This document shows positions 11,418 through 57,978 of a stretch of 62,024 bases of DNA, in pieces (position 1 is the stretch's first letter; each line of letters begins with the position of its first letter). Position numbers and translations under genes: made by a program. The stretch is from Paludibacter sp. (GTDB taxonomy: Bacteria; Bacteroidota; Bacteroidia; Bacteroidales; Paludibacteraceae), in contig JAAFGX010000015.1 of assembly GCA_010365115.1 (NCBI GenBank), positions 1 through 62,024 of the forward strand. Direction: 5' to 3'. The notes under the pieces were generated by a model, which was given only the letters and a program-made list of their open reading frames with translations, searched no databases and was not told the DNA's origin.

Positions 11418-11464
11418 CATTAATCAATTATTAAGTATTTATTAATAACATGTTTCTATTTTTG
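11418..11464 (+). promoter_or_regulatory. Triple 11-bp heptamer operator and promoter of the sulfatase operon
   Basis: Heptamers CATTAAT (11418-11424), TATTAAG (11429-11435) and TATTAAT (11440-11446) repeat with an exact 11-bp period. After a 10-bp gap comes TATTTTTG (11457-11464), a perfect -7 element. No TTTG -33 element exists, and the third heptamer occupies that position, which fits activator-dependent transcription. The start codon of the first sulfatase is 38 bp downstream. Confidence 0.78.
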
Positions 11465-11502
11465 TACTGTCTATTATAAACACTACAAAAAATCAATACT
11501 GC

Positions 11503-13083
11503 ATGTTAGTAAAAAATTTCAATCTCACGCTGGCATCACTTTTTGTTGCTGCTCCTTTGTGCAACGCTACGGCACAAAAAAAATCCACTCCGAATATTCT
11601 GGTTATAATGACCGACCAGCAACGTTGGGATGCATTGCGGTATTCGGGCGCCAATGATATTATAAAAACGCCCAACTTAGATAAATTAGCCCGCGAAGGA
11701 GCCTATTTTTCCCAAGCCTGCAGCCCTTGTCCTGTTTCGGGTCCGGCACGTACGAGTATATTGACGGGGAGATTAATTGAATCGACAGGAATCCGCACCA
11801 ACATGGATTCGGATGATGACAAAGAATGCGACTACAAAACCTTTGATCAGATTCTTGCTGTGAATGGCTATGTAGCTGAATATTACGGCAAATTTCATTC
11901 ACCAAAGTATATGGCACAGGCGTATAGCAATCCGCCTCAGTATGGATATAAAGTTCCGGAGTTGATTAAAAGCTGGGAGAAATTGTATCACTTTTATTTA
12001 AACGAAACTACAAAAAAACGGCAGCCTAAAAACGGAGAATTAATCGATTTTAGTTTTTTTGACGGTGCTAATTATAAGCCTGTTCCGATGGATCGCCGAT
12101 TTGATAAAACGCCTGCAGAGCAACTTTCTGATGAAGAGTTAAAAGTCCGACAACTTGTGCAACCCGACCATCATGGAACGCTCAACTTGAAGTCGGAGCA
12201 TTCTATAACTGCTGTTCAGGGCAGGCAAACCATTGATGCAATAGAGCGAAATAAAAGCAATAAGTTTGTAATTACCTGTTCGTTTCATTATCCACATTCC
12301 CCTATTTTGCCCACCGAGCCTTATGCAAGCATGTATAAAGCTTCGGAAATGCCCATTCCAAAAACTATTTCGGATCAAATGGCGGGAAGTCCGTACTTTA
12401 AATCAAATGGCAGGTTGCTCATGCCCGAATATGCCGACAGTGCAAAAATTGGCTATATGATTGCCAATTACTATGCGTTAGTTACCGAAATTGATGATTG
12501 GGTAGGTAAGATAATCGATAAATTAGATGAACTGAAACTGCGTGAAAATACCTTGATTATTTTCATGAGCGACCATGGTGAAATGCTAGGAGCACACGGC
12601 ATGCGTGAAAAAAACGTGATGCTGGAAGAGTCTGTTCGCGTGCCTCTTATCATTAATTATCCTTCAAAAATTTCAAGTCGGAAAATTGATACTCCGGTTT
12701 CGCTTATCAATGTATTTCCTACCATTTTGGATTATGCCGGAATAAAAGCCGAAAGTGATGGATACTCGCTGCGTAAATTAGCGAATGGGAAAAATCCTTC
12801 AACTGATTTTGCTGTAACAGAATGGAACTGGGAAAAACAAGAAGTGCCCAACTTAATGATTCGTACGAAGGAATGGAAATTGTTGATTTCGAGGAACAAC
12901 AATCAGAAAAACCTGGATGCATTGTACGATTTGAAAAATGACCCGTATGAACTCAACAATCTGCTTTTTACAAACAGAGATAAATACAAAGCGACAGCTG
13001 AAACATTAAAATCAAAATTGGTTGATTATTTGGTAAAAGTCAACTACTCATATACAGAAGAAATCAGAAAACGCACGTTTTAA
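11503..13083 (+). CDS. S1 family sulfatase, serine type
   Basis: A 526-residue sulfatase with a signal peptide ending near ATAQ (residue 25). NILVIMTDQQRWD supplies the N-terminal metal ligand (Asp38), and SGPARTSILTG the maturation motif, with Ser79 as the residue converted to formylglycine (S-x-P-x-R; two cysteines precede it but are not in the motif position). LIIFMSDHGEMLGAHGMREK supplies the second Asp-His metal pair. The enzyme hydrolyses sulfate esters on glycans. The serine form requires a radical-SAM anaerobic maturase, which is not encoded in this window. It is the first gene of a six-gene operon and lies directly behind the heptamer-array promoter. The closest paralog is the sulfatase at 15425 (shared CPVSxPARTSILTGR block). 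The subfamily and position specificity are not clear to me. Confidence 0.92.
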   Translation: MLVKNFNLTLASLFVAAPLCNATAQKKSTPNILVIMTDQQRWDALRYSGANDIIKTPNLDKLAREGAYFSQACSPCPVSGPARTSILTGRLIESTGIRTNMDSDDDKECDYKTFDQILAVNGYVAEYYGKFHSPKYMAQAYSNPPQYGYKVPELIKSWEKLYHFYLNETTKKRQPKNGELIDFSFFDGANYKPVPMDRRFDKTPAEQLSDEELKVRQLVQPDHHGTLNLKSEHSITAVQGRQTIDAIERNKSNKFVITCSFHYPHSPILPTEPYASMYKASEMPIPKTISDQMAGSPYFKSNGRLLMPEYADSAKIGYMIANYYALVTEIDDWVGKIIDKLDELKLRENTLIIFMSDHGEMLGAHGMREKNVMLEESVRVPLIINYPSKISSRKIDTPVSLINVFPTILDYAGIKAESDGYSLRKLANGKNPSTDFAVTEWNWEKQEVPNLMIRTKEWKLLISRNNNQKNLDALYDLKNDPYELNNLLFTNRDKYKATAETLKSKLVDYLVKVNYSYTEEIRKRTF

Positions 13084-13094
13084 TAGCAATTAAT

Positions 13095-14024
13095 GTGGAT
13101 AATCAGAAAAAAATCAATTTCATAAAAACATTAACAATAGCTTGTTGCTTGTTGGCCATTGCTACATTTGTAAATGGTCAGTCGAATCGCCAACCCCAAA
13201 GTGGACATGTACCTGAGCTCTCGGCTTATAATTTTGGAAGTTTAGGAAAATTAGCTCCGTCAACCCAAATTGCGCTTTTAAAAAAGACTGGTTATAAGGG
13301 AGTGATTTTAAATTCTGAGACAAAAGACGACTCGGCTAATCTGGATATATTTTTAAATGAATTGAGAAACGATAAGCACTTCAAAGTTCATGCAGTAATG
13401 GTGAGGTATAATTTTGCCGATCCATTGCAAAAGAGAGAGGGATGGAAAACAACAATTGATAGGATTGCAAATAAGCGCATAGAATTGTGGTTTATTTTTG
13501 GCAAAAAGATAGACGGAATAACCGATCGTTTTATTGAAACAAAACTGAAAGAAGTTGTTGAATATGCCAAAACGAAAAATGTACCGGTAATTCTTTATCC
13601 GCATAGCAAATGTTATATCGCTTCGGCTGAAGAAGCACTGCCCTTTGTACAAAAAATAAATGATCCAAACCTGAAACTTGCCGTACATCTTTGTCACGAA
13701 ATACGCGCCGGAAATGGCTCAAGAATAGATGCGGTTTTCGAGCATGTTAAAAAACATATCGGAGCTGTAACGATGGCAGGAACGGACTCGGTGGCTGATT
13801 TTTCGAAGCCGGTTTTAATGGATAAAAGCACTATAAAACCCATTGGACAAGGAAATTTTAATATGAGAAACTTTATTGAACCTCTTCGAAAGTCTACATA
13901 CAAAGGCAGTGTTGGTTTTATAAATTTCAAGATTGAAGATGATCCGGAAGTCTATTTGGAGAACTCAATATCAGTTTGGAGAAAATCGAATGAACTAATT
14001 AAAAACGATACGACAAGAAAATGA
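13095..14024 (+). CDS. Secreted sugar isomerase/epimerase-like TIM-barrel protein
   Basis: A 309-residue protein starting at GTG 13095, 11 bp after the sulfatase stop; no in-frame ATG gives a complete signal peptide. Residues 1-33 form a signal peptide ending near VNGQ. The remainder matches the xylose-isomerase-like (AP_endonuc_2) TIM barrel used by sugar phosphate isomerases and epimerases: LLKKTGYKGVIL, NVPVILYPHSKCYIASAEEA, NLKLAVHLCHEIRAGNG and PIGQGNFNMRNFIEPL. An extracytoplasmic isomerase-like protein between sulfatases probably acts on released sugars or has been repurposed. Its histidine and glutamate metal-site residues seem partly kept (H in YPHSK, H and E in HLCHE). It overlaps the next sulfatase by 4 bp (ATGA), so translation is coupled. 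Confidence 0.75.
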   Translation: MDNQKKINFIKTLTIACCLLAIATFVNGQSNRQPQSGHVPELSAYNFGSLGKLAPSTQIALLKKTGYKGVILNSETKDDSANLDIFLNELRNDKHFKVHAVMVRYNFADPLQKREGWKTTIDRIANKRIELWFIFGKKIDGITDRFIETKLKEVVEYAKTKNVPVILYPHSKCYIASAEEALPFVQKINDPNLKLAVHLCHEIRAGNGSRIDAVFEHVKKHIGAVTMAGTDSVADFSKPVLMDKSTIKPIGQGNFNMRNFIEPLRKSTYKGSVGFINFKIEDDPEVYLENSISVWRKSNELIKNDTTRK

Positions 14025-15382
14025 AAAAAACATTCTTATTGGCTGCAACCATTGCCGGAACAGGCATTGGACAATTAACAGCAGCAAAAAAAGCAGACAA
14101 AAACGTTTTATTTATTATAGTTGATGATTTGAACACCACTTTAGGTTGTTACGGTCATCCAGTTGTAAAAACTCCCAATATTGACCGCTTGGCAAAAATG
14201 GGCGTGCAATTCAACAATGGATATTGTAACTATGCGGTAAGCGGTCCGAGCAGATCATCGCTCCTAACAGGATTAAAACCCGAAACAATTAACATTCTCG
14301 ACAATAAAAAAACATTGGCATCGGTTCTGGGAGATAAAATTACATTGCCCAATTTATTTAAACAAAATGGTTACCACACGATGGGCATAGGCAAGGTTTA
14401 TCATGGTAAAAATGAGGATAACGACCCAAAGGGCTGGGACGAGATCCATGCGTATGGACCAACAGCCATAGGAAAAACCGGTGAAAGCAGAAATATGACA
14501 GACGGTGCTCTGAAATGGTGCGAATGGATGGCTGCTAATGGAACCGATGAAGATTTGCAAGATGGACAAAATGCCCGTAAAGCTGTAGAATTTATTAAAA
14601 GCCCAAAAGACAAACCATTTTTTTTGGCGTTGGGATTTCAAAAACCACACGATCCGTTTATTGCTCCTAAAAAATATTTCGACATGTACCCGCTCGAAAT
14701 ATGCAATCCACCCGTTTTGCCCGAAGGTTGGACACCGCCTTTTAAACATACTTTACCCAACGAAACAGCTGTTTTTGATAAGTTTACCGATCAGGACAAA
14801 CGTGAGTTTTTACGTTCGTATTATGCATGCACCAGCTATATGGATGCTCAGGTGGGTAAAGTGTTGAAGGCATTGGAAGAGTCAGGTCAGTTGGATAATA
14901 CCTTGATTATTCTTTTTGGCGATCATGGCTATCATTTGGGCGAACACAACTGGTGGAACAAAGTAACTTTATTTCAAAAAGGAACAAATGCTCCTTTTAT
15001 TGTTGCCGGTCAATCAGTTGGTAAAAAAGGTGTTAGCTCCGATGCCATGTTTGAATATATTGATATCTATCCTACTTTAGCCGATATTTTTAAACTTAAA
15101 AACACTCCAACATATATTGATGGGAAAAGTATTAAAAAAGTATTGAAAAATCCTTCAAAACCATTTCGCAGTTCGGTAAGTGCAGTAGTAAGCAGAGGAA
15201 ACATGCTTGGCAGAATGGTGAAAAATGAGAACTGGAGATACATTGAATGGGACAATGCCAAAATGGGCGTAGAACTGTACGACCAACAAAATGACCCGAT
15301 TGAATACAATAATTTGGCTCAAAATCCTGAATATGCCAAGGTAATTAATGAAATGAAGAATTTGATGCACCCAACAAAATAA
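14021..15382 (+). CDS. Iduronate-2-sulfatase-like S1 sulfatase, serine type
   Basis: A 453-residue sulfatase with a signal peptide of about 22 residues. NVLFIIVDDLNTTLGCYGHP gives metal ligands Asp35 and Asp36. The maturation motif is VSGPSRSSLLTG, with Ser74 as the formylglycine precursor. MGIGKVYHGKNEDNDPKGWDE and LALGFQKPHDPFIAPKKYFDMYP are the blocks I associate with the iduronate-2-sulfatase-like group (S1_7 in SulfAtlas naming). LIILFGDHGYHLGEHNWWNK carries the second metal-binding Asp-His. The natural substrate in this group is usually a 2-O-sulfated uronic acid or related hexose, but the group is broad. The start codon overlaps the isomerase-like gene stop. Confidence 0.9.
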   Translation: MKKTFLLAATIAGTGIGQLTAAKKADKNVLFIIVDDLNTTLGCYGHPVVKTPNIDRLAKMGVQFNNGYCNYAVSGPSRSSLLTGLKPETINILDNKKTLASVLGDKITLPNLFKQNGYHTMGIGKVYHGKNEDNDPKGWDEIHAYGPTAIGKTGESRNMTDGALKWCEWMAANGTDEDLQDGQNARKAVEFIKSPKDKPFFLALGFQKPHDPFIAPKKYFDMYPLEICNPPVLPEGWTPPFKHTLPNETAVFDKFTDQDKREFLRSYYACTSYMDAQVGKVLKALEESGQLDNTLIILFGDHGYHLGEHNWWNKVTLFQKGTNAPFIVAGQSVGKKGVSSDAMFEYIDIYPTLADIFKLKNTPTYIDGKSIKKVLKNPSKPFRSSVSAVVSRGNMLGRMVKNENWRYIEWDNAKMGVELYDQQNDPIEYNNLAQNPEYAKVINEMKNLMHPTK

Positions 15383-15424
15383 ATTAAAGTTCAAATAATT
15401 ATCAATAATAACACATTACGAAGT

Positions 15425-17017
15425 ATGGAAATTAAAAATTTTGGAATAGCCACATTAGCATTGGCAGCCCTTTTTCCAAAAATAAGTTTCGGGCAGGACA
15501 AACGCCCTAATGTGCTGATTATTATGACCGATCAGCAACGATGGGATGCCATGCGATGTGCAGGAAACCTGGAAATAAGTACACCAAATATGGATCGTAT
15601 TGCCAAAGAAGGCGTTCAGTTTACCAATGCGTATTCAGCTTGTCCGGTTTCTGTACCGGCGAGAACTTCTATTTTAACAGGAAGAACAATATTCAACAAT
15701 AAAGTATTGACAAACAATGATTCTGAAAGTGATAGTGTAGCAAAACTTCAAACTTTTGATATGATTTTATCTGCAAATGGTTATCGTACCGAATATTATG
15801 GAAAGTATCACAGTCCGTATCAGTTTGCTACCATGTATAACAACCCGGTTTATCCAACCAATAAAACAAAATCTTCAACTCTTCCTTCTAAGGTTGAAGG
15901 ACTTCGCCAATATCTTGATGAATTAGGTGTTCCAGTTACAAAACCAATTGGAAATGAATTAATTGACAATATGAGTCTTCGTACGTATACGCCATTAGCT
16001 ATTGATTTATATTATGGTGAAAAAAATGATGAATCGGAAGTGAATGTAAAAGGTAAGCCCAAGAAAAAAGGAGGTCAGGGCGATTCCTTTGGAATAATTC
16101 AAAGTGGTGATAATGCCTCGTTGGCTGCATTCGAAGGAAGTGAAGGGTTGAAAGCATTGCAAAATATGAAACCCGGTCAGCCGTTTTCGATGACTTGTTC
16201 GTTTGGACCTCCTCATCCTCCATTTATTGTACCTAAAAAATATGCTGACATGTACGATGCTCAAAAATTGTCAGTAAGCCCGAGTATTAATGATGACTTA
16301 ATCAATGCACCTTACAAAATGAGTCCAAATTCAACTGATGCTCGTTTCAAAAATCCTGAGATGAATAAGGAAATGAAAATGGTTTATTATGCCATGATTT
16401 CTCAGGTAGACGAATGGGTTGGCAAGTTATTGGATGAATTGGATCGCAAAGGAATTGCTAAAAATACGATTGTGCTTTTTGTGAGTGATCACGGTGAATT
16501 GCTTGGTGACCATGGCTTGGTAAGTAAAAATAAAATGTACGAAGGCTCGGCTCGCATTCCTTTATTAATTCGTTATCCGGGAGTTATTCCGGCGGGGAAA
16601 AAGGTAGAAACACCGGTTTCGCACCACGATATTTTTGCAACAATTCTGGATTATACCGGCATGAAAGCACCTGAAAATGACGGACGTAGTTTGCGTAAAT
16701 TGATTGATGGGAAAAAAGATTCGGTTGATTATGCCGTTTCGGTTTGGGGTGCTATAAACAATGGTGGTCCGTTTATGATACGCAAGGGCGATTGGAAAAT
16801 GATTGTTTATTTACAGATGGATGATAAAAAACAACGAAATACCAATGCATTGTATAATCTAAAAAACGACCCCTTTGAAATGAATAACTTGATTGGTTCT
16901 AATCCCGATAAATCAAAGTATGAAACAAACGTTTCCGATTTAAAACAGACGTTGAAAGACTGGATGATTAAAACCAAAACACCTTATGTCAAAGAATTAG
17001 AAAACACAAAGCTATAA
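15425..17017 (+). CDS. S1 family sulfatase, serine type
   Basis: A 530-residue sulfatase with a signal peptide ending near SFGQ (residue 24). NVLIIMTDQQRWDAMR gives the N-terminal Asp ligand, and CPVSVPARTSILTGR contains Ser76 in the S-x-P-x-R maturation motif. IVLFVSDHGELLGDHGLVSK gives the second metal pair. The protein parallels the sulfatase at 11503 block for block (DQQRWDA, EYYGKYHSPYQF, TCSFGPPHPPF), so the two arose by duplication within the operon. They differ most in the region from about residue 170 to 235, where this copy has a lysine-rich insert (KGKPKKKGGQGDSFG). That suggests related but distinct substrates. It is 42 bp downstream of the preceding sulfatase with no promoter visible between. 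Confidence 0.92.
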   Translation: MEIKNFGIATLALAALFPKISFGQDKRPNVLIIMTDQQRWDAMRCAGNLEISTPNMDRIAKEGVQFTNAYSACPVSVPARTSILTGRTIFNNKVLTNNDSESDSVAKLQTFDMILSANGYRTEYYGKYHSPYQFATMYNNPVYPTNKTKSSTLPSKVEGLRQYLDELGVPVTKPIGNELIDNMSLRTYTPLAIDLYYGEKNDESEVNVKGKPKKKGGQGDSFGIIQSGDNASLAAFEGSEGLKALQNMKPGQPFSMTCSFGPPHPPFIVPKKYADMYDAQKLSVSPSINDDLINAPYKMSPNSTDARFKNPEMNKEMKMVYYAMISQVDEWVGKLLDELDRKGIAKNTIVLFVSDHGELLGDHGLVSKNKMYEGSARIPLLIRYPGVIPAGKKVETPVSHHDIFATILDYTGMKAPENDGRSLRKLIDGKKDSVDYAVSVWGAINNGGPFMIRKGDWKMIVYLQMDDKKQRNTNALYNLKNDPFEMNNLIGSNPDKSKYETNVSDLKQTLKDWMIKTKTPYVKELENTKL

Positions 17018-17027
17018 AAACACAAAC

Positions 17028-19643
17028 ATGAAGTTAAAACAATTTGGATTAATAATTGCATTAATATTATCAACTATTTATGCTTTTTCAGGAACACCTG
17101 TTGCAAGCATAGTATTTTCGAGTCCGGTTGTATCCACTAATCTGACCCATTATACCACAACTTCTACAACAAGCGAATCGTATACTATTCAAACAACAAA
17201 AAACGGAGTTGCTTGTCGTCAAATATCGTTGTCGAAATATGGCTATTTCAATGTAAATGATATAGCAATCCCATCGACTCAAAACAATTTAATTTTCAAT
17301 ATTACTTTTTTTGATGAAGGAAGTAATAAAATTAATTTGCAGTACAATGCCAACGATGGAAATAGATATAAAGCACTTTCACTGCCACAATCAGGCTCAA
17401 ATGCATGGGTAACTGCAAAAGTGACTATTACAAATGCTGCACTTAACAATCTGCAAAACAATACTTCCGATTTCAGAATTTCAGGAATTGGTGGCGATGT
17501 TTTTATTAAAGAAATTACTATTGAAATAGGAACATTAAATCCAGAAGGAGAGCCAATTCCAGTTGCTGCGGCAAGTACTTACTCCGAGTTTACAGGTAAA
17601 TCGGTAGCCGGCTATCAGGCATGGTTTGTGGCTGGCACTCCAACTTCGGGTTGGACTCATTGGAATTATAAAACGAATGGAGCGCCGGGAAAAGGTACTA
17701 TGAGTTTCGAAGTTTGTCCCGATATTTCAGAATATCCCGATGATGTACTGAAACCAACTAATTTTGCACCCATGGGGAATGGCAATCCATTAAAATTATT
17801 TTCATCATCTTCTCAATCGGTAATTGACGTTCATTTTAAATGGATGAAGGATTATGGTATAGATGGAGCGGCTGTTCAGCGGTTTATTGGCAATATTGGA
17901 AGTGCAATTATTAACTCGCCCAGTTCAACAATATCAAAGATAAAACAAGCTGCCCAGACAAACGAACGGATTTTTTATATCTGCTATGATACTTCGTCCT
18001 CGGGTATGGATGCAACCTGGGACGAGGTAATAAAAATGGACTGGGTGTATAATGTGGAGCAAAACAACAACCTGACTACATCGCCCGCCTATGCCAAAGT
18101 GGGAAATAAACCGGTTGTTCAACTTTGGGGTTTGGGATTTAAAGGCGGTAAAAATCCGGGAACTGCTGCTGAGACCATTGCATTGATTGAGTTTTTTAAA
18201 GCACGTGGTTGTTATGTAATTGGCGGTACGCCCCGTGGCTGGCGAACCGGCACAAGCGACTCGAAAGGTGTTACTCAAAGTTCGACAGTGCCTGGTGATA
18301 ATGAAGATTTTTTACCCGTTTATCATGCCCTCAATATGATTTCGCCCTGGATGCCGGGACGAATCAAAAACAATACTGATGCGGATAATTTATTAGCAAG
18401 CACCATGACGCCAGATAAAACCTATTGCGATGGACGTAACATTCAATATATGCCGGTAAACTTTCCCGGTTTTGCATGGTCGCAATGGAAGGATGGTGAT
18501 GTAAATTGGGCGCCACGCAATGCCGGTGAGTTCATGTGGCGACAAGCCACCAATATTAAAAAACTCGGTGTGCAGAACATGTATTTTGCCATGTTCGACG
18601 AATATGATGAAGGCACAGCCATAATGAAAAATGCAACGGACTGGAGCATGATTCCTACCGACCAGTATTTTCTGACATCGAGTGCCGATGGTCTTTGGCT
18701 CTCGTCCGATTTTCAGTTGCGTGTAGCTGGAGCGGCAGTGGAGATGTTGAAAGGAAATCGGGCTGTAACTACCAATGTACCCGTAGCTCATTCCAACGGT
18801 CCGGTTTATTATCGCAATAGCTTTGAAAAACGCACCACAGCTTACAATTATGTAGATGATGTGGCCACAAAAAACGGCACATTTAATATTGATCCTTGTT
18901 TTTATCAGAATTCAGAGATTTTAAGGAACAATGTACTGAGTCCGGTTTGCGAAATACAAACAACAAATACCAAAAGCGGACTATATTCGGTAAAAACATC
19001 AGGAACAATCAGTTTAAATACTTCAGCAAAATATATTTACAAAATTGCCACTACAAAAATTGCCGTAAAACCAGACATGAAACTTTCGTTTTGGAAAAAA
19101 ACCGAAAACGATTTGGGACGCCATGTTACAGTAGATTTTATAACAAAAAGCTCGAAAAGACTCACAGATCTGGGATATGTGGATCAAAATGGAGCTTCGA
19201 TGCATCCTGCCACACCTCGTGGAACTGTTGGTGGAAATTGGGAACAATTTACGTGTAAATTTGGCAGTGGAACATTGCTGGGAGATACAATTGTCGGAAT
19301 TGAGATAGTTTATAATCAGACAGGGCCGGGTACTTTTACGGCATATTTCGATGATTTTCAGATTGATGAGCTCCCGGATGTTACCAGTGTTAGTTTTCCT
19401 GAAAGTGGAGAAGGCAAAATGATTGCCTTTCCAGGTATGTCAAACGGAAAATACAGGCTGACCATGCCCGAATCAGCAAATTATAGTCTTTATGTTTACA
19501 ATATGGAAGGAAAAATTATTTTGAATGAAAAATTCAACGGATCAGAAGCGGGTTTTGATATAAGTTCGTGTTCCAATGGAGTTTATATTCTGAAAATTGT
19601 AACTGCGGATAAAAAATACATGCAAAAATTAGTCAAGCTGTAA
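17028..19643 (+). CDS. GH99-like (GH71/99 superfamily) hydrolase with T9SS domain
   Basis: An 871-residue protein with a signal peptide at residues 1-22. An N-terminal beta-sandwich (about 25-180) precedes the catalytic barrel (about 185-570), opened by GKSVAGYQAWFVAGTPTSGWTHW, the hallmark of GH71/99-like proteins. FDEYDEGTAI near residues 523-531 has the E-x-x-E spacing (Glu525, Glu528) of the GH99 catalytic pair. A jelly-roll CBM-like domain follows (about 600-785, SFEKRTTAYNYVDDV onward), then a T9SS sorting domain (last ~75 residues, YSLYVYNMEGKIILNEKF, ending KYMQKLVKL). GH99 enzymes are endo-alpha-1,2-mannosidases or mannanases, so alpha-mannan cleavage at the cell surface is the leading hypothesis. 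It is the fifth gene of the operon, 10 bp after a sulfatase. Confidence 0.8.
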   Translation: MKLKQFGLIIALILSTIYAFSGTPVASIVFSSPVVSTNLTHYTTTSTTSESYTIQTTKNGVACRQISLSKYGYFNVNDIAIPSTQNNLIFNITFFDEGSNKINLQYNANDGNRYKALSLPQSGSNAWVTAKVTITNAALNNLQNNTSDFRISGIGGDVFIKEITIEIGTLNPEGEPIPVAAASTYSEFTGKSVAGYQAWFVAGTPTSGWTHWNYKTNGAPGKGTMSFEVCPDISEYPDDVLKPTNFAPMGNGNPLKLFSSSSQSVIDVHFKWMKDYGIDGAAVQRFIGNIGSAIINSPSSTISKIKQAAQTNERIFYICYDTSSSGMDATWDEVIKMDWVYNVEQNNNLTTSPAYAKVGNKPVVQLWGLGFKGGKNPGTAAETIALIEFFKARGCYVIGGTPRGWRTGTSDSKGVTQSSTVPGDNEDFLPVYHALNMISPWMPGRIKNNTDADNLLASTMTPDKTYCDGRNIQYMPVNFPGFAWSQWKDGDVNWAPRNAGEFMWRQATNIKKLGVQNMYFAMFDEYDEGTAIMKNATDWSMIPTDQYFLTSSADGLWLSSDFQLRVAGAAVEMLKGNRAVTTNVPVAHSNGPVYYRNSFEKRTTAYNYVDDVATKNGTFNIDPCFYQNSEILRNNVLSPVCEIQTTNTKSGLYSVKTSGTISLNTSAKYIYKIATTKIAVKPDMKLSFWKKTENDLGRHVTVDFITKSSKRLTDLGYVDQNGASMHPATPRGTVGGNWEQFTCKFGSGTLLGDTIVGIEIVYNQTGPGTFTAYFDDFQIDELPDVTSVSFPESGEGKMIAFPGMSNGKYRLTMPESANYSLYVYNMEGKIILNEKFNGSEAGFDISSCSNGVYILKIVTADKKYMQKLVKL

Positions 19644-19678
19644 AAAAAATACATCAAAATGAAAAACTGAATTTACAA

Positions 19679-21503: not shown

Positions 21504-21551
21504 TATTAATTATTAATTAATTCATTTTTAATTGGTGCAACTCTATCTTTG
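21504..21551 (+). promoter_or_regulatory. Triple 11-bp heptamer operator and promoter of GH92
   Basis: Heptamers TATTAAT (21504-21510), AATTAAT (21515-21521) and TTTTAAT (21526-21532) keep an exact 11-bp period. TATCTTTG (21544-21551) follows after 11 bp, one base more than in the other four arrays. The GH92 start codon is 42 bp downstream. The spacing difference may weaken or modulate activation. Confidence 0.72.
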
Positions 21552-23824: not shown

Positions 23825-23860
23825 TGATGTGATGATGTGATGATGTGATGATGTGATGAT
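23822..23860. repeat. 8-bp tandem repeat (TGATGATG x 4.9)
   Basis: TGATGATG is repeated perfectly four times plus seven bases, beginning with the TGA stop codon of GH92 at 23822-23824. Because the unit is 8 bp, every copy number keeps the first TGA in place, so repeat slippage should not alter the protein. It looks like a replication-slippage microsatellite in the GH92-susC spacer. Confidence 0.9.
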
Positions 23861-23985
23861 TCGAAGATGGTGTGCATCAATTATTTAAAATTAATTCATT
23901 GCCACGGAATTGACTTGATAGAAAATTATACGCGATTATTTTTTATTATTCGAAATTTGAAAATTATTAATTGAATTATATATTT

Positions 23986-26900: not shown

Positions 26901-27177
26901 AACAATTTACCCTTGGAGAATGCTCTCGGCAAATACCGAGCCACTACGCAATGTGTACGATGCATCTATGGTTCGTTTGAAAATGGTGGAACTGGCTTAT
27001 CGGTTCTCAGCAAGCAGTTGTAAAAAAATGGGGTTGACTGGTTTAAAAGTCTTTGTGAACGGAAACAACCTGTATTTGTGGACAAAAATGGCCGATGACA
27101 GAGAATATGGTGGCGGTAACAGAGGTAACTATCCTACCCTGAAACGTTTTAATTTGGGTTTTAATCTTGATTTATAA
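23986..27177 (+). CDS. SusC/RagA-type TonB-dependent transporter
   Basis: An approximately 1063-residue outer-membrane transporter. The start is ATG 23986 or 24004; both give a signal peptide ending near IQAQN. A carboxypeptidase-regulatory-like domain ([37 protein letters not shown], about residues 45-125) precedes the TonB box ([15 protein letters not shown]) and plug (SSIKGETL...[32 protein letters not shown]). A 22-strand barrel follows, ending in an aromatic-type LGFNLDL terminus. The protein imports oligosaccharides with SusD as the lid. Its SusD partner starts 11 bp downstream. I see no clear -7 element in the 161-bp spacer after GH92, so readthrough from the GH92 promoter is plausible. 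Confidence 0.95.
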   Translation: [1063 protein letters not shown]

Positions 27178-27188
27178 TACGCAATACA

Positions 27189-29216: not shown

Positions 29217-29252
29217 CCATTCATCTATTAAACTTATAAAAAGAATAATCAC

Positions 29253-32141: not shown

Positions 32142-32159
32142 TTTTTAATTTAGAAGAAG

Positions 32160-33995: not shown

Positions 33996-34023
33996 TATAA
34001 TTGTTAAATCGATAAAAGAAAAA

Positions 34024-41481: not shown

Positions 41482-41482
41482 T

Positions 41483-45457: not shown

Positions 45458-45473
45458 ATGTAATTTGATTCTC

Positions 45474-45481: not shown

Positions 45482-45509
45482 TTTGATACAATCAATAGCA
45501 ACATAAATT

Positions 45510-47640: not shown

Positions 47641-47687
47641 GATTAAGTATTTATTAATTCAATTTTAATACCATGAATATATGTTTG
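47641..47687 (+). promoter_or_regulatory. Triple 11-bp heptamer operator and promoter before the second GH92
   Basis: Heptamers GATTAAG (47641-47647), TATTAAT (47652-47658) and TTTTAAT (47663-47669) with exact 11-bp period, then a 10-bp gap and TATGTTTG (47680-47687). ATTAAGTATTTATTAAT (47642-47658) is identical to bases 11430-11446 of the sulfatase operon promoter. The first start codon downstream (47706) belongs to a gene remnant; the GH92 start is at 47941. Confidence 0.78.
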
Positions 47688-50226: not shown

Positions 50227-50288
50227 GATAGATTGAGCAGATATAATTTATTTATGTTATCTTGCAATAAATTTAAATACAAAAAAAA

Positions 50289-51743: not shown

Positions 51744-51747
51744 GATA

Positions 51748-51790
51748 ACCCCAAGCCCCTCCCAGTAAAACGGGGATAAATTGCGGGGAT
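51748..51790. repeat. REP-like palindromic remnant (CCCC/GGGG type)
   Basis: ACCCCAAGCCCCTCCC (51748-51763) is followed by CGGGG (51771-51775) and GCGGGGAT (51783-51790), an imperfect relative of the units at 35062 and 41547. It starts 5 bp after the esterase stop codon, again at a gene end. Confidence 0.55.
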
Positions 51791-51933
51791 GTGAAATACC
51801 ATCATTTACTTTCGCTGGCTGCATTTTATGTTCATAATTCATTGATAATATCATGAAAATCAATAATATTACATTTGAAAATTGAAATAGAATTAACGTC
51901 ATAACTTTTTGCGCAAAACACTTATTGCACTAC

Positions 51934-51962
51934 CCGTCTGACCGCTTTGAGCGGTCGGACGG
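51934..51962. repeat. GC-rich palindrome CCGTCTGACCGCT/AGCGGTCGGACGG
   Basis: A 13-position stem with one mismatch and a 3-base loop (51934-51962), GC-rich in an AT-rich spacer, 31 bp before the sulfatase ATG. It lacks a T-run. In this position it could impede or stabilise the transcript between esterase and sulfatase, or be a separate REP type. Confidence 0.65.
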
Positions 51963-51992
51963 ATGATAGATACAAACAATAGATAAAATAGA

Positions 51993-53615
51993 ATGAATTC
52001 AACGAACCTACAACTCAAAATCACACTTTCTCTCGCAGCATTTTCAGTCGTTGCACCCATTGGGGCAAAGCCAAAAACAACGAAGAAGCCGAATGTAATT
52101 CTCATTTTCAGCGACCAACACAAGGCGGACGTGTTTGGATATCAGGGTCATCCGGATGTAAAAACCCCTAACCTCGATGCGATGGCAAAAGCTGGAGTTG
52201 TGTTTAATCGTGCTTATTGCCAGAATGCCATTTCGGCACCATCGCGCATGTCCATGTTTACAGGCCTTTATCCCCGTACCATTGGCGCTATGGATAATGC
52301 GCCGCTCACTACCAATATTGTGAAAAATGCTGTGTCGTTACAAGCTGCTTTGCAGGCAAATGGTTACGACACCTATGCTTTTGGCAAACGGCATCTCGAT
52401 TCGGGCGCTGATAAAGGTTGGACAATTGAAAAAAGCCATCTTGCCAAAGAATCACTGTCAGAAAATTATGTAAGTTGGATTGAAGCACAAGGTCTGGCCG
52501 ATGAATTTGGCGAAGATTGGGCTGCGGAATTTGGAAAATATCCGGATGGAAACTCAAAAGCCGGAACAAAATTTCCGACAGCCAAAATGGGAACACGCAC
52601 TACACGATTGCAGGAGAATATGACTATGGAGGCTTATTCAACGGAACTCACATTAGATGTTATTCGTAATCACAAAAAAAGCGACACGCCATTTTTCTGT
52701 TTTACCTCGTTTTATCGTCCGCATCAACCTTATAACCCACTTCCAAAGTATCTGTCCATGTACGACATTACGAAATGGGGCAAAGGCACGTTGCAAAACG
52801 ATGGACTTGAAATGCCCGAATCAATGCATCAACCTGCCGATGAACTTCCTCCGATGCTTTCGGCTTTGCGTAAAAGCAAATCGGGAATCTGGTGTTTGGG
52901 ATTGGCAGCCGAGGACGAACAATTGTACCGAAACTACATAGGCTCCTATTATGCCTTGGTAACTGAAATTGATGCCCGGGTGGGTGATATTTTTGCCGAA
53001 CTGGAAAAAACAGGAATGGCAGAAAATACGATTGTCATTTATTCCTCCGATCATGGCGATTTTGTAGGCGGACATGGAATGATTGAAAAAGCAGCAATGG
53101 GACACAATGTGTACGAAGAAACATTGCAAGTACCCATGATGTTTTTCTGGAAAGGAAAATTTCCTGCCGGTTATGAAAACAACGATTTAGTAGGATTAAT
53201 TGATTTGTATCCAACCATTATGGAACTTACAGGCAGTAAAAAACCGCAGACCAATTATAATCTTCAAGGCATTTCGCTGGCTAAAACAGTAACTGCAAAA
53301 AAACAAATCAATCGCAACTACATGGTATCCGAAAACTATAGTCAGGCAACAGTTATTACCAAAGACTATAAATTGGGCATTATGCTCGACCCAACTGCCG
53401 CTGCCGCTAATCGGGATTATCGTGAGTTTGGCAATATGCTCTTTGAGCGTAAAAGCGATAAACACGAAGTAAAAAACCGTATTAATTCCACAGCTCTACA
53501 ACCTGTTATCAAAAAGCTTACGAGTTATTATGCCGAATTCGAAAAACAAATTTCGGACGAAGGAAAAGCCGAGATGGTAAAAAAACATGATGCATCCACG
53601 AAAAAGAGAAATTAG
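51993..53615 (+). CDS. S1 family sulfatase, serine type
   Basis: A 540-residue sulfatase with a signal peptide of about 25 residues. NVILIFSDQHKADVFGYQGHPDVKTPNLD gives the first metal ligand. NAISAPSRMSMFTGLYPR contains the maturation motif with Ser81. YAFGKRHLDSG has the active-site Lys and His region, and IVIYSSDHGDFVGGHGMIEKAAMG the second metal pair. It does not closely resemble any of the four sulfatases in the 11-21 kb operon, so it brings a further specificity that I cannot name. It is the last gene of the unit starting at 47680 and is followed by a strong terminator. Confidence 0.92.
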   Translation: MNSTNLQLKITLSLAAFSVVAPIGAKPKTTKKPNVILIFSDQHKADVFGYQGHPDVKTPNLDAMAKAGVVFNRAYCQNAISAPSRMSMFTGLYPRTIGAMDNAPLTTNIVKNAVSLQAALQANGYDTYAFGKRHLDSGADKGWTIEKSHLAKESLSENYVSWIEAQGLADEFGEDWAAEFGKYPDGNSKAGTKFPTAKMGTRTTRLQENMTMEAYSTELTLDVIRNHKKSDTPFFCFTSFYRPHQPYNPLPKYLSMYDITKWGKGTLQNDGLEMPESMHQPADELPPMLSALRKSKSGIWCLGLAAEDEQLYRNYIGSYYALVTEIDARVGDIFAELEKTGMAENTIVIYSSDHGDFVGGHGMIEKAAMGHNVYEETLQVPMMFFWKGKFPAGYENNDLVGLIDLYPTIMELTGSKKPQTNYNLQGISLAKTVTAKKQINRNYMVSENYSQATVITKDYKLGIMLDPTAAAANRDYREFGNMLFERKSDKHEVKNRINSTALQPVIKKLTSYYAEFEKQISDEGKAEMVKKHDASTKKRN

Positions 53616-53703: not shown

Positions 53704-53750
53704 AATTAATTATATTTTAAGTCCAAATTAAGCGCACCCACATATCTTTG
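53704..53750 (+). promoter_or_regulatory. Triple 11-bp heptamer operator and promoter of the beta-helix pair
   Basis: Heptamers AATTAAT (53704-53710), TTTTAAG (53715-53721) and AATTAAG (53726-53732) have exact 11-bp period. A 10-bp gap precedes TATCTTTG (53743-53750). TTAAGTCCAAATTAAG (53717-53732) is identical to 57945-57960 in the next promoter, including its distance to the -7 element. The ATG is 43 bp downstream. Confidence 0.8.
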
Positions 53751-53793: not shown

Positions 53794-55773
53794 ATGCAAA
53801 AAAATTACTTTCTTAAAGCAGTATTCACAGTACTACTTTGCAGCTTCTTTTCTTTGAGTTACGCAGCCGACATTTATTTGTCAACTACAGGAGTTGATAC
53901 CAACGATGGAACGACAGCGTTAACTGCCGTTGCTTCTTTTTCTCAGGCACAAACTCTTGCCGCTTCGGGCGATATTATTCATGTATCGGGAATGATTGAT
54001 TTTACGTTAGATCCTGCAAACACTGAATCACCTCAGGTGGGGATTACACTTGATAAGAACTTAAGCATTCAAGGTGCTTCAAATACAACTGATGGTTTTG
54101 ATGGAAAAAGCCTAACACGTTTTATCCAAACCGCAGGATTTAACCTTACCATGACTAACTTAAAGCTAACCGGAGGTTTAATTGCCGTTGGTAACGGTGG
54201 TGCCATTAATATTACAGGTGGAACTATTAGCCTTACAAATATTGATCTTGATTCGAATAAAGCTTTGTATGGTGGTGCCATTTATGTAGCATCCGGAACA
54301 GTTATGTTGGATGGATGTACGATACAGAATAATGATAATTCAGGCATTTTATTATCAAACGGTGGGGGTATTTATGTAAAACCTACTGCAGCCGTTACCT
54401 TGAATGTCAATAATACATTACTGAAAAATAACAAAACGGCCGCTGAAGGTGCTGCTATTTATTACGGAGATGCACTAGTTACAACTTGCACTATGAAGTT
54501 TACAAACTGTGCTATTATATCAAATACTACTGGTGGAACTACACTTGGTGGAGGAGCCTTTATTAATAATTCTACTCCTAGCGCTACAGTAGGCGTAACT
54601 TTCATTAATTCTACTATTTATGACAATGCTGCTGGTGGTATTTCTAGTGGTGGTATGGCAGTTTCAAATTTAAGGACAGGTTCAGTAATTGATTTTAGAA
54701 ATTGTACGATAACAGGAAATAGGGTTATGTCTGGAACTTCTGCAGGTGCAGGTGCTGGTATACGGGCTTTTACTGCTGTTAATACAAATGGGGGTGTTGT
54801 AAAATTTTATAATAGTATACTTGAAAACAATTACTGTCCGGGTGCAGCAGTAAGTTCTACTAACTATACCACAGATTTTGCATGGCAAGGTGAAGGTTTT
54901 ACTGCAGGTACTAACTTAATTATTGAGAATTCTTTCCTTGGAAGACCTGGTTCACCAACAAACGCAAAATGGTCACTTGCTACTAATTCATTTCCTACCA
55001 CCAAATTAAATTATGTTTCTTTAATTGACAATGATGTGAGAAAATCATATAAAGCTAAGTTTGCTCCATTTAATTCAACGGGAAATTATTTACCATTGTA
55101 TTATGGTTCTGAAGCAATTAATTATGGTACATCTACATATCTAACTAGTTTAACTCCTTCGGTTACTACCGACCAATTAGGTAACACCCGTCCCTTTACA
55201 GACGGTAAATGTTATGCCGGTTCAGTTGAAATAGCACCAATAACAACTGCCCCTGCAGCTCCAACAACGTTAGTAGCGACACCAGGTGATACTGAAATTT
55301 CTATTGCCTTTACCGAAGGTTCAACAGGTGGTTTAGCCATTACAAATTACAAATATTCTACCGATAATGGAGTTACTTATACTGCCCTTGACCCTGCTGT
55401 AACCACAAGTCCGATTGTAATTACAGGCTTAGCCAACAATATTGAATATACAGTAAAATTGAAAGCAGTAAATGCCAATGGCGATGGTGCCGAAAGCGTG
55501 GCAAGCAATGCGGTTACTCCAACCGGAACTACCGGATTGGATAATGTAATCAGTAAAGTTACTATCTTTAGAAACTCGAACAAACAGATTGTTGTGAACA
55601 ATGCTTCTCAAAAAACAGGAACAATAACTGTTTGCAATGCAGTTGGTCAGCGAGTTGCAAGTGTAACGTTAAATGCTGCTACAACCACTATCAATAAATC
55701 ATTCACTTCGGGAGTGTATTTGGTAATGCTAAATATTGATGGTAAAACCAGTTCAACTAAAATAATTTTATAA
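53794..55773 (+). CDS. Secreted beta-helix protein with FN3 and T9SS domains
   Basis: A 659-residue protein with a signal peptide at residues 1-25 (ending LSYAA). Residues 27-480 are a glycine-rich parallel beta-helix of the choice-of-anchor-Q or polymorphic-OMP style (IYLSTTGVDTNDGTTALTAVASF at its start; repeated GGAI(Y/F) and TFINSTIYDN turns; a TTDQLGNTRPF closing motif). Residues 485-590 form a fibronectin type III domain (APTTLVATPGDTEISIAFTEG), and the last ~70 residues a T9SS sorting domain (GTITVCNAVGQRVASVTL, ending SSTKIIL). It may be a surface lyase or an adhesin-like glycan binder; no catalytic residues are obvious. The paralog at 55852 follows in the same unit. A heptamer-array promoter drives it. 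Confidence 0.8.
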   Translation: MQKNYFLKAVFTVLLCSFFSLSYAADIYLSTTGVDTNDGTTALTAVASFSQAQTLAASGDIIHVSGMIDFTLDPANTESPQVGITLDKNLSIQGASNTTDGFDGKSLTRFIQTAGFNLTMTNLKLTGGLIAVGNGGAINITGGTISLTNIDLDSNKALYGGAIYVASGTVMLDGCTIQNNDNSGILLSNGGGIYVKPTAAVTLNVNNTLLKNNKTAAEGAAIYYGDALVTTCTMKFTNCAIISNTTGGTTLGGGAFINNSTPSATVGVTFINSTIYDNAAGGISSGGMAVSNLRTGSVIDFRNCTITGNRVMSGTSAGAGAGIRAFTAVNTNGGVVKFYNSILENNYCPGAAVSSTNYTTDFAWQGEGFTAGTNLIIENSFLGRPGSPTNAKWSLATNSFPTTKLNYVSLIDNDVRKSYKAKFAPFNSTGNYLPLYYGSEAINYGTSTYLTSLTPSVTTDQLGNTRPFTDGKCYAGSVEIAPITTAPAAPTTLVATPGDTEISIAFTEGSTGGLAITNYKYSTDNGVTYTALDPAVTTSPIVITGLANNIEYTVKLKAVNANGDGAESVASNAVTPTGTTGLDNVISKVTIFRNSNKQIVVNNASQKTGTITVCNAVGQRVASVTLNAATTTINKSFTSGVYLVMLNIDGKTSSTKIIL

Positions 55774-55783
55774 ATAATTTCAG

Positions 55784-55822
55784 ATCTCAGCACTCAACCG
55801 GGTGTTGGGATTTAAAATTTTC
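55784..55822 (+). terminator. Possible attenuating hairpin between beta-helix genes
   Basis: ATCTCAGCACTC (55784-55795), loop AACC, and GGGTGTTGGGAT (55800-55811) form a 12-bp RNA stem with G-U pairs, followed by TTTAAAATTTT. It is weaker than the operon-end terminators and could reduce expression of the second paralog, which has no promoter of its own. Confidence 0.5.
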
Positions 55823-55851
55823 AATTAATACAAACAACTAAAAAAACCATT

Positions 55852-57813
55852 ATGAAACACAATTTCTTATTAAAAGCAGTATTCACGCTTATTATGTGTG
55901 GATCTATTACTTTGGCTTCAGCAGTCGATATTTATGTGTCAAATGGCTCAGGCGATGACACCAAGGATGGTCTAAGTTCTTCAAATGCTGTTAAAACCAT
56001 ATCAAGAGCATTTACAATTTCATCTGTAGGCGATGTTATACATGTGATGGATATGATTAATATAAATCAAGAACCAACAAAAGCGGGAGCAAGAGCAGAT
56101 ATTAACATTGCTGGAACGTCACTTTTTTCACCTACAGGTGTGGTTTACAACACATGGAATGTAGGTGGCAATTTAGGTATTATCCCACTCACACGTTCTA
56201 TTACAATAGTAGGTGACGATAAAGCAAGCTGCGGTTTTGATGGAAATAATACCAGCTGCTTGATTCGTCAGGATTTAAGTGCACTTGGTGCCAATAATGG
56301 AGGTCCAGGTGTTCCCGATATCACTGTGATTACCTACAAAAACCTCACTTTCAAAAATGGTAAAAGTAACGACTCATCTGGTGGAGGTGGTGTGTATTTA
56401 AGAGGTGGGTTCCCTATAGTATTTACATCTGCCTATTTTGAAAACTGTGACTTTTTGACAAATACAGGAAACCAAGGTACTACGTTGAAAACCGGAGGTG
56501 GATTATTTATGAAACACGGACAGTTATCATTAAAAAAATGCCGTTTTGCCGAAAATATGGCTTCGAAAGGTGCTGGTATGTATTTGGAAGGTGGAAATAC
56601 AACAATTGATAGTTGCTTATTCGAAAACCACGACCTGAGCGCGGTTGCAAGTTCAAATGCCGCAGCAATTTTAACCACAATGGGTGCTGCTGGTACTATT
56701 ATCAATTTAGATGTGAAAAATACTGTTTTTAAAAACAATAAATCAGCAAGCTATGGTGGAGCATTCGTAAGTACCGAAACAAATCCTACTGTGGCCACAA
56801 CGGGAAGCTCGAATATAAAATTCACAAACTGTGCATTTGTTGATAATGTATGCGGTACGAGTTTAGGTGGTGCTGCTTATGTTAGTAATATTAATGTTGG
56901 TACTACGCAAGATGTTTCATTTGTCAACACCACATTTTACAACAATCAAACTGGTGCAAATACCGCAGGTGCTATAGCTGTAAATTCATTGTTGGTTAAT
57001 TCAAAATTTAATTTGATTAACTGTACAGTAAGTGGCAATAAAGTAACAGGCGTTACTGGTGCAGGTGGTGCAGGTGTACGTTTTCTGAAAGGTTCGTCGG
57101 CTGGTACTCGCACTATTAAAAACTCTATACTTGAAAACAATGTAGCTGTGGATGCCAATATGACTGCGATGTCCGATTATGCCGACTTAGGTATGGAAAT
57201 CAATGTGGATCCTGGTACTTTTGTTGAAACTCCTTCGTATACAGCGGGAACTAATTTAATAATTGAAAAATCTATTATTGGTTTTTGCCAGAATGCTGAT
57301 TTTGCTACTCAGTTCCCAATGAATAATGTGAATTATGTATTCGACCTTAATGGAAGCATTGCCAACTCGTATGTGGCTAAATTAGGAGTTTTCAACGAAG
57401 AAATGAATTATTTCCCATTAATGACTGGTTCGCCAGCGATTGCATATGGTAATTCAACATTCTTATCTTCACTAACACCTGCTGTTACAACCGACCAGAT
57501 TGGACGTAATCGTCCTGCAGTAAATTGCTCGGCAGGAGCTTACGAATTTGCAACTATTTCAGGTTTAAACTATACGGTGAACAATTCAATTACAGTGTAT
57601 AAAAATGCCAACAACCAAATTACGGTAAAAAATAACGCCGAAACAACGAATGTAGGAACAATTACAGTTTGCAATATGGTTGGACAGATTATTACGAGTG
57701 CACCTTTAAATGGTTCGGTTACCACTATCAATAAACAACTTACTTCAGGTATTTACTTGGTATTGGTAAATATTAATGGCAACGTTAGCACTAAAAAAGT
57801 AATGTTGAATTAA
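55852..57813 (+). CDS. Secreted beta-helix protein with T9SS domain (paralog)
   Basis: A 653-residue paralog of the protein at 53794. The signal peptide (FLLKAVFTLIMCGSITLASA), the opening IYVSNGSGDDTKDGLSSSNAVKTIS, the closing TTDQIGRNRPAVNCSAGAYEF and the sorting domain (GTITVCNMVGQIITSAPL, ending STKKVMLN) correspond block by block. It lacks the FN3 domain and has a longer first third. The DxGR..R...GAYE closing motif is the choice-of-anchor-Q type. The two probably act on or bind related parts of the substrate at the cell surface. It is transcribed with the first copy, with a weak hairpin between, and ended by a strong terminator. Confidence 0.8.
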   Translation: MKHNFLLKAVFTLIMCGSITLASAVDIYVSNGSGDDTKDGLSSSNAVKTISRAFTISSVGDVIHVMDMININQEPTKAGARADINIAGTSLFSPTGVVYNTWNVGGNLGIIPLTRSITIVGDDKASCGFDGNNTSCLIRQDLSALGANNGGPGVPDITVITYKNLTFKNGKSNDSSGGGGVYLRGGFPIVFTSAYFENCDFLTNTGNQGTTLKTGGGLFMKHGQLSLKKCRFAENMASKGAGMYLEGGNTTIDSCLFENHDLSAVASSNAAAILTTMGAAGTIINLDVKNTVFKNNKSASYGGAFVSTETNPTVATTGSSNIKFTNCAFVDNVCGTSLGGAAYVSNINVGTTQDVSFVNTTFYNNQTGANTAGAIAVNSLLVNSKFNLINCTVSGNKVTGVTGAGGAGVRFLKGSSAGTRTIKNSILENNVAVDANMTAMSDYADLGMEINVDPGTFVETPSYTAGTNLIIEKSIIGFCQNADFATQFPMNNVNYVFDLNGSIANSYVAKLGVFNEEMNYFPLMTGSPAIAYGNSTFLSSLTPAVTTDQIGRNRPAVNCSAGAYEFATISGLNYTVNNSITVYKNANNQITVKNNAETTNVGTITVCNMVGQIITSAPLNGSVTTINKQLTSGIYLVLVNINGNVSTKKVMLN

Positions 57814-57870
57814 TCGAAAAAATTCAGCATAAGAGTCTTGAATCTTGATTCTTGGTTCTAACATCTTAAG

Positions 57871-57916
57871 AAATGGCAATAATTGAATGTTTTTTCAATT
57901 ATTGCCATTTTTTTAT
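57871..57916 (+). terminator. Hairpin terminator after the beta-helix pair
   Basis: A 17-bp perfect stem (AAATGGCAATAATTGAA at 57871-57887 and its complement at 57894-57910) with a 6-base loop, followed by a T-run to 57914. The same kind of GGCAATAAT stem is used at 53641. Confidence 0.9.
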
Positions 57917-57931
57917 CTTAAAGCACGTCTG

Positions 57932-57978
57932 TATTAAGCATTAATTAAGTCCAAATTAAGTCCACACTTCTACTTTTG
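57932..57978 (+). promoter_or_regulatory. Triple 11-bp heptamer operator and promoter of the phosphoesterase unit
   Basis: Heptamers TATTAAG (57932-57938), AATTAAG (57943-57949) and AATTAAG (57954-57960) have exact 11-bp period; in the last two the repeat extends to AATTAAGTCC. After 10 bp comes TACTTTTG (57971-57978). This is the most regular of the five arrays. The ATG is 46 bp downstream. Confidence 0.82.

Follow-up and report, generated by a model that had tools for sequence, protein, structure and literature searches.

Repeat arrays upstream of glycan-utilisation genes in Paludibacter as probable operators of a transmembrane SARP-type activator

The DNA considered here is a 62,024-nucleotide stretch from Paludibacter sp. 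(assembly GCA_010365115.1, contig JAAFGX010000015.1, positions 1 to 62,024 of the forward strand; hereafter the window, or contig C59), in which five intergenic repeat arrays precede genes for sulfatases, GH92 enzymes and other proteins. In each array, three NWTTAAK heptamers follow one another as direct repeats with an exact 11-bp period, and a TAnnTTTG element, the Bacteroidota -10 consensus, comes 10 bp after the third heptamer (11 bp in the array at 21504). A gene for a protein of 860 amino acids, the candidate regulator, ends 30 bp before the first array. The elements are as follows.

8805..11387, plus strand: candidate regulator gene, 860 amino acids, 3' end 30 bp before array 1
10626..11384, plus strand: SARP-fold C-terminal domain of the candidate regulator, 253 amino acids, as judged from AlphaFold2 and Foldseek
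11418..11464, plus strand: array 1; heptamers 11418-11424, 11429-11435 and 11440-11446, TAnnTTTG 11457-11464; sulfatase gene (11503) downstream
21504..21551, plus strand: array 2; heptamers 21504-21510, 21515-21521 and 21526-21532, TAnnTTTG 21544-21551; GH92 gene (21593) downstream, probably also the SusC/SusD genes
47641..47687, plus strand: array 3; heptamers 47641-47647, 47652-47658 and 47663-47669, TAnnTTTG 47680-47687; an open reading frame (ORF) of 31 codons, then a GH92 gene (47941)
53704..53750, plus strand: array 4; heptamers 53704-53710, 53715-53721 and 53726-53732, TAnnTTTG 53743-53750; pair of secreted-protein genes from 53794 downstream
57932..57978, plus strand: array 5; heptamers 57932-57938, 57943-57949 and 57954-57960, TAnnTTTG 57971-57978; metallophosphoesterase (58025) and DUF5010/CBM35 protein (59502) genes downstream

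The five arrays lie exactly where the original prediction had placed them, with the period and the spacing that it gave, and they are the sole such triples in the window, both strands having been searched. The strict pattern was absent from 100 dinucleotide shuffles. In the whole assembly of the organism (4.79 Mb, 207 contigs) it matched 12 times, namely, at the five arrays of the window and at seven places on one further contig, C60; the reversed pattern, which served as the control, gave no match.

C60, 6510 (minus), 18956 (minus), 19040 (plus), 34751 (minus), 41874 (minus), 48002 (minus) and 58022 (minus): arrays matching the strict pattern

When up to two mismatches were permitted at the 10-bp spacing, no site beyond these 12 appeared in this genome, and the next-best candidate ahead of a TAnnTTTG on C59 and C60 has four core mismatches. 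The search pattern itself prescribes the letters TTAA and K. It does not demand the pyrimidine that stands directly behind the first and the second copy in every case (24 of 24), so that the consensus proposed originally, which all copies do match, is better written WTTAAKY for these two copies; the third copy does not obey this rule. The repeat core consists of A and T only, as would be expected if A+T-rich DNA mimicked the code by chance. We nevertheless give this explanation next to no credence in view of the empty shuffles, of the uniform pyrimidine and of the reversed control, which remained at zero here as well as across the 300 family genomes described below; for the strict patterns, the shuffles and reversed controls exclude chance and low complexity.

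The position of the arrays relative to the promoter is equally constant. At none of the 12 sites is there a TTTG 15-23 bp upstream of TAnnTTTG, in agreement with the original claim that the usual -33 element is missing and that the third heptamer stands in its place. As for the original suggestion that each array is the only candidate promoter of its unit, a complete TTTG-N17-20-TAnnTTTG promoter matches the window once, on the minus strand at 20051. With regard to ECF sigma promoters, whose -10 element would be unlike the housekeeping TAnnTTTG, the latter is found at 12 of 12 sites but was required by the pattern; permitting two mismatches yielded no added site. At 11 of the 12 sites, TAnnTTTG is followed after 16-65 nt by the first ATG of a reading frame of at least 60 amino acids. 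The exception is array 3, where the ATG of the GH92 gene lies 253 nt past TAnnTTTG, behind a signal-peptide-like ORF of 31 codons (47706-47801) that is closed by a stop and that may represent what is left of a former first gene. Thus, the GH92 gene that had been assigned to array 3 is indeed found downstream of it, but not as the first reading frame.

The gene next to array 1 is single in its genome, where a search returned one match. Its product consists of an N-terminal hydrophobic helix, a beta-sandwich (residues ~48-239), a Kelch propeller (~252-552), a probable transmembrane helix (~571-592), judged from the sequence and the model rather than by a dedicated predictor, and a cytoplasmic C-terminal part (~619-857). 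An AlphaFold2 model of the C-terminus, built with 53 sequences (pLDDT, the predicted local distance difference test, 94.4), shows a winged helix and, behind it, a purely helical, BTAD-like domain, in the order that characterises the SARP fold, in which an OmpR-type winged helix precedes an all-helical BTAD. Foldseek searches of the PDB with this model gave six matches at E<0.001, exclusively to AfsR (8k60 and 8hvr, both transcription initiation complexes) and EmbR (2fez and 2ff4), with E values of 1.9e-6 to 9e-6, template-modelling (TM) scores of 0.54-0.59, a root-mean-square deviation of ~6 and 14-15% identity over 247-254 columns; the next match had an E value of 0.04. The layout of the arrays matches what is described for SARPs (papers marked "in part" are cited for the portion of their text that was available). 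SARP operators are direct repeats with a period of 11 or 22 bp, the 3' repeat being 8 bp from the -10 element (PMC10936776, in part); the repeats are heptameric, in some cases three in number, and overlap the -35 region (PMC10972967, in part). The window arrays show the same 11-bp direct repeats over the -35 region and near the -10 element. AfsR places one protomer on each repeat, the two lying next to each other, and it is these protomers, in place of a -35 element, that support sigma region 4 (PMC10936776, in part).

The connection between protein and array could be followed through 300 genomes of the family, 23 of which carry a homologue of the regulator. The window code, i.e. the strict WTTAAK array, was found in 10 genomes (54 sites, reversed control 0), and all 10 are among the 23. 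The flanks of more distant homologues contain a second code of the TAACC type, with a spacing of 11/12 or 12/12 bp; it occurs in eight genomes (14 sites, control 0), all of them among the 23 and none among the 10 with the window code. Hence, 18 of the 18 code-bearing genomes possess the regulator, and neither strict code was detected in the 277 family genomes that lack it. The corresponding hypergeometric value of 9e-25 is too strong, because the genomes share ancestry. Part of the loci also served to build the TAACC pattern, and their sites match by construction; the actual test of this code lies in the 277 genomes without the regulator, where it does not occur, together with the additional sites that it revealed away from the flanks used. 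Local de novo scoring of sequences before TAnnTTTG had missed the TAACC clade because of its 11/12 spacing, and reading the flanks of the regulators revealed it.

The two codes can be compared with the predicted recognition helix of the regulators. The helix table covers 98 of 110 loci, L079, L101 and L108 having been left out as broken or short, along with nine loci with identical C-termini. The motif R-G-V-T-I is present at 8 of 8 TAACC loci and at 0 of 29 TTAA loci, whereas NNR-x-V is present at 28 of 29 TTAA loci and in the window protein; L096, a TAACC locus, matches both. The exception among the TTAA loci, L095, has an intermediate helix, NLKGVT, and its repeats read TTAACC. On a tree calculated with the helix masked, the code needs two changes, of which L095 is the second, and none of 500 shuffles was as low, with the reservation that deep branches are weakly supported and that near-copies favour such clustering. 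In the sequences compared, then, the operator code follows the recognition helix.

Relatives of the regulator are widespread in the phylum. A scan of named genomes, in which the best 80 of 133 relative loci were kept, includes members from Paludibacter, Bacteroides, Dysgonomonas, Draconibacterium, Tamlana, Polaribacter, Echinicola and Fulvivirga. Arrays resembling array 1 lie 3' of the regulator gene at L072 and L073 and, with one core mismatch, at L074. In 102 regulator loci (L072-L100 and L109-L181; L101, with no full homologue, and the duplicate contigs L102-L108 were omitted), TTAA triples with a period of 11 or 12 bp before TAnnTTTG gave 50 rows, 36 of them perfect, versus one row in the reversed sequence. 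After correction for two further pairs of duplicate contigs (L084/L166 and L085/L145), 46 of the 50 rows are distinct, in 41 of 100 loci. As many as 29 of these 46 fall within 700 bp of the regulator gene, a zone that makes up 9.7% of the DNA, and in 35 of the 46 the distance from the last TTAA to TAnnTTTG is exactly 11 bp, although 9-14 bp were permitted. A histogram of intergenic triplet clusters at the 100 distinct loci, filtered against dinucleotide runs and cleared of doubled contigs, peaks at the spacing (11,11), with 121 clusters versus 8-46 for each of the other 80 spacings, an excess that is due in part to unrelated tandem arrays of an 11-bp unit. For triplets with TTAA in all three copies, the counts are 38 at (11,11), 21 at (12,11), 13 at (12,12), 10 at (11,12) and at most five at any other spacing. 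Longer tandem arrays of an 11-bp unit, unlike the operator in sequence, were seen, among other loci, at L078 (5003-5070), L093 (8344-8450) and L099 (18274-18400). At L112 (8638-8700) and L110 (8902-8960), runs of TTAA-type repeats in which spacings of 11 and 12 bp are mixed lie several kb away from the regulator gene and are perhaps operators with extra copies.

A number of observations weigh against assigning the arrays to a SARP-type regulator. Membership of the protein in the SARP family rests on a predicted structure, and its SARP-like domain is C-terminal, behind the probable transmembrane helix, instead of in the N-terminal place that is usual for SARPs though perhaps not part of their definition. 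Sequence searches of the PDB and the Pfam scan of the single protein gave nothing significant; for the window protein, Trans_reg_C scored E 0.007-0.037, under the cut-off, and BTAD did not match. Among 53 members of the regulator family, at E<=0.1, Trans_reg_C was found in 15 (best 0.0032) and BTAD in six (best 1.4e-4), both weak, and unrelated families scored alike in the same scan, e.g. UTP20_C with 3.4e-4. With NCBIfam, three of the 53 matched AfsR (best 0.035) and seven the response regulator RprY (best 8e-4). In the stretches covered, an exact array of either code is absent from 61 of the 98 regulator loci, including both Draconibacterium loci and Echinicola, and neither strict code occurs in 5 of the 23 regulator-bearing family genomes (G022, G102, G112, G192 and G202); in G192 the gene is broken in the assembly, and in G102 the match is weak and contains a stop. 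By eye, this weak G102 match (locus L101, contig C135, ~9933-10631) resembles the start of an ordinary SARP/BTAD protein more than that of a Kelch-SARP protein and may represent a soluble relative. The assembly has an estimated contamination of 7.2%, and C59 and C60 are separate contigs; C60 encodes an NrtR-type regulator of its own (1746-2531), and the Pfam scans covered 29 of the 32 listed genes of the window and 21 of the 39 of C60. By eye, C60 also contains a helix-turn-helix-like ORF of 68 amino acids (2769-2975). Finally, in 384 genomes of the order, a loose pattern, the TTAA triple without flanking letters, was present in 44 of the 357 that lack the regulator, in some before OmpR-family regulators, and in 11 of the 27 that have it (Fisher 4e-4); the reversed control of this pattern matched 17 of the 384 genomes.

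What the loose pattern detects bears on the possibility that the arrays are Pho-type boxes of an ordinary OmpR/PhoB response regulator. We inspected 10 such places, nine in regulator-free genomes and one, preceding a GH3 gene, in G606, which has the regulator. Of the nine, two lie before OmpR-family response regulators and one before a phosphate-selective porin; a further five lie before small CarboxypepD_reg-like proteins (one so assigned by Pfam and four by likeness), and the last before a 138-residue ORF without assignment, 473 nt away. At L214 and L215 (OmpR-family), L216 (the porin) and L209 (a small CarboxypepD_reg protein), the triples have an 11-bp period and read mostly TTAAYA, and those before the L214 and L215 regulators and the L216 porin, in genomes without the Kelch regulator, are likewise followed by TAnnTTTG at 11 bp. 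The regulator-free arrays are probably the Pho box of Bacteroidales and, since they have the same geometry, geometry alone is not diagnostic. A Pho-type origin of the window arrays would also accord with the third copy, which is TTAATA in 7 of the 12 window-type arrays, as in those boxes, and with the phosphoesterases among the regulon genes. The letters of the first two copies differ: TTAAYA is read in 13 of 18 of them in the nine arrays from regulator-free genomes and in none of 24 in the arrays of the window type, whose heptamers are followed there by the pyrimidine. A Pho-type pattern has no place within one mismatch in the Paludibacter genome; at up to three mismatches it finds 12 places, nine of them window-type arrays and three elsewhere (reversed control 2). 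In addition, the sites are limited to two contigs, both strict codes are confined to genomes with the Kelch-SARP protein (18 of 18), and Pfam finds no receiver domain in the candidate regulator, which sets it apart from PhoB-type response regulators. We therefore regard Pho-type boxes as an improbable explanation: letters and linkage separate the Kelch-SARP system from the OmpR-fold systems that share its geometry. Two near-identical triples of a TTAAG type precede TAnnTTTG at 86583 and 112308 of contig C10 in G021, a family genome without the Kelch regulator.

The genes that follow the arrays in the window are listed here with their assignments.

11503..21238, plus strand: behind array 1; sulfatases at 11503, 14021, 15425 and 19679, xylose-isomerase-like protein at 13095, protein with a secretion tail at 17028 (Pfam)
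21593..35076, plus strand: behind array 2; GH92 at 21593, SusC-like receptor at 23971, SusD at 27189 (Pfam); also genes at 29253, 32160 and 33982, outside the scan
47941..53615, plus strand: behind array 3; GH92, SASA esterase, sulfatase (Pfam)
53794..57813, plus strand: behind array 4; pair of secreted proteins, with a beta-helix match in the first (Pfam)
58025..61973, plus strand: behind array 5; metallophosphoesterase, protein with DUF5010 and CBM35/CBM6 (Pfam)

The targets on C60 comprise sulfatases, GH99-like proteins (under the Pfam cut-off), a cupin and GH38, phosphoesterases, GH130, a sodium symporter and a DUF5010 protein. The genes behind arrays 1, 2 and 3 and those on C60 would each form one unit per array, and the whole set suggests the breakdown of sulfated or otherwise decorated alpha-mannan. 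No array was found in the gene stretches 297-8433 and 35639-46682 of the window. The first of these contains a DDE transposase gene (5884-7797, minus strand) between a short ORF (5298-5855), which has no Pfam match and whose start resembles, by eye, a beta-helix protein, and a fragment (8011-8433) that matches just the end of DUF3843; the arrangement over 5298-8433 suggests insertion and decay immediately before the regulator gene.

Given such targets, an HTCS or a SusR-like protein might be expected to bind the arrays, these being the usual glycan regulators of Bacteroides, with predicted sites that are direct repeats (PMC3878776, in part). However, the predicted repeats of HTCS are 21 bp apart and those of SusR 67/77 bp, according to the same partly available source, as opposed to 11 bp here, and the scan of 29 proteins from the window and 21 from C60 matched neither HTCS nor DUF6377, which makes this alternative very improbable. 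The candidate regulator itself contains no histidine kinase, receiver or AraC domain and, with an array period of 11 bp, falls outside the HTCS. Kinship with SusR was considered and rejected: the SusR-type protein of the sus locus L206 is a DUF6377 protein, and hhalign gave a probability of 0.3% for its relationship with the C-terminus of the regulator. It is similarly hard to believe that the Kelch-SARP protein binds the arrays as a repressor, the promoters being released once a glycan is sensed. The arrays occupy the -33 place of 12 promoters that have no TTTG there, and AfsR activates from the equivalent position (PMC10936776, in part).

Taken together, the layout, the linkage and the predicted fold indicate that the protein encoded at 8805-11387 probably binds the arrays, and we consider it very likely that these are the operators of a transmembrane one-component activator of the SARP type for glycan-utilisation operons, a module found across Bacteroidota. 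Its action can be envisaged as follows. The periplasmic sandwich and Kelch propeller would sense a glycan breakdown product, and the signal would cross a single helix to the cytoplasmic SARP-type domain, with its modelled winged helix and BTAD-like helices. Protomers would then bind side by side to the successive repeats, which are one helical turn apart, and fill the place of the missing -33 TTTG; a contact with RNA polymerase like that of AfsR with sigma region 4 would allow the TAnnTTTG -10 element to be used. In this manner at least 12 promoters would be controlled, mostly before genes for sulfatases, GH92, GH38, GH99-like and GH130 proteins and phosphoesterases, the presumed substrate being decorated alpha-mannan. 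Binding, activation, the ligand and the polymerase contacts are proposed here, the contacts by analogy with AfsR. The same module would recur across Bacteroidota, with operator letters and period varying along with the recognition helix.

In a broader perspective, it is reasonably likely that transmembrane SARPs form a class found throughout Bacteroidota, whose members activate in response to glycans and read DNA in a modular way: a few recognition-helix residues would set the letters used by each subclade (WTTAAKY with an 11-bp period, TAACC with an 11/12-bp period), and the distance to TAnnTTTG would stay nearly constant. Polysaccharide loci would then have a fourth type of regulator in addition to HTCS, SusR and ECF systems. 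An orphan family of membrane sensors is here matched to an operator from sequence alone and, therefore, the regulons of uncharacterised glycan clusters become readable from DNA. If the assignment is true, the SARP mode of activation, known from the control of antibiotics in actinobacteria, extends to carbohydrate sensing in Bacteroidota, which raises the question of how a protein tethered to the membrane can cover three neighbouring helical turns and take over the -33 contact. The co-variation of helix and repeat letters also offers a system for studying a recognition code and for inducible promoters.

Among the known systems that the proposed activator resembles, ToxR and CadC have an N-terminal cytoplasmic winged helix and a C-terminal periplasmic sensor. 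They, too, are one-component proteins with an extracytoplasmic sensor, one transmembrane helix and a cytoplasmic winged helix of the OmpR type (in part after PMC10269533, itself available in part); the order is reversed here, with the sensor N-terminal and the DNA-binding domain C-terminal, and a BTAD-like domain is added, so that the protein does not belong to this group. HTCS and SusR-like regulators share the membrane location, the periplasmic sensor and the direct-repeat sites before glycan operons (PMC3878776, in part), but have other DNA-binding domains (AraC-type and DUF6377, respectively). OmpR/PhoB proteins and the probable Pho-type boxes of Bacteroidales exhibit the same 11-bp geometry before TAnnTTTG; they differ in having a receiver domain and no sensor or membrane part, and copies 1 and 2 of their repeats are mostly TTAAYA.

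The closest likeness is to the SARP family (AfsR, ActII-ORF4, DnrI, PimR and EmbR), with which the present system has in common the winged helix and BTAD-like fold as well as direct heptamer repeats with an 11-bp period, in three copies as for some SARPs. The distance to the -10 element is 10-11 bp, to TAnnTTTG, in place of 8 bp (PMC10936776, in part). Unlike in SARPs, a Kelch sensor and a probable transmembrane helix come first and the domain forms the C-terminus; the setting is Bacteroidota, next to glycan-utilisation genes; the repeats read WTTAAKY or TAACC, the latter with an 11/12-bp period, and the sequence has no significant match to the SARPs of the PDB. This comparison also qualifies the original prediction. 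Its central idea of a shared operator with one-turn spacing is upheld by the genome-wide specificity, by the linkage in 300 genomes and by the fold of the regulator; the probable binding protein and the seven C60 sites go beyond it. Its statement that no Bacteroidota regulon with this layout had been described stands within the open-licence literature searched, because the repeats of HTCS and SusR are spaced so differently (PMC3878776, in part), and no joint report of SARP-type domains and glycan regulation in Bacteroidota was found in the open-licence PMC literature. The layout as such is not novel, being the geometry of the classical actinobacterial SARP operator (PMC10972967 and PMC10936776, both in part) and occurring also before OmpR-family regulators in other Bacteroidales. 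Thus, the mechanism and the operator are already known from SARPs, whereas the architecture, the phylum and the role are new within the open-licence literature searched.

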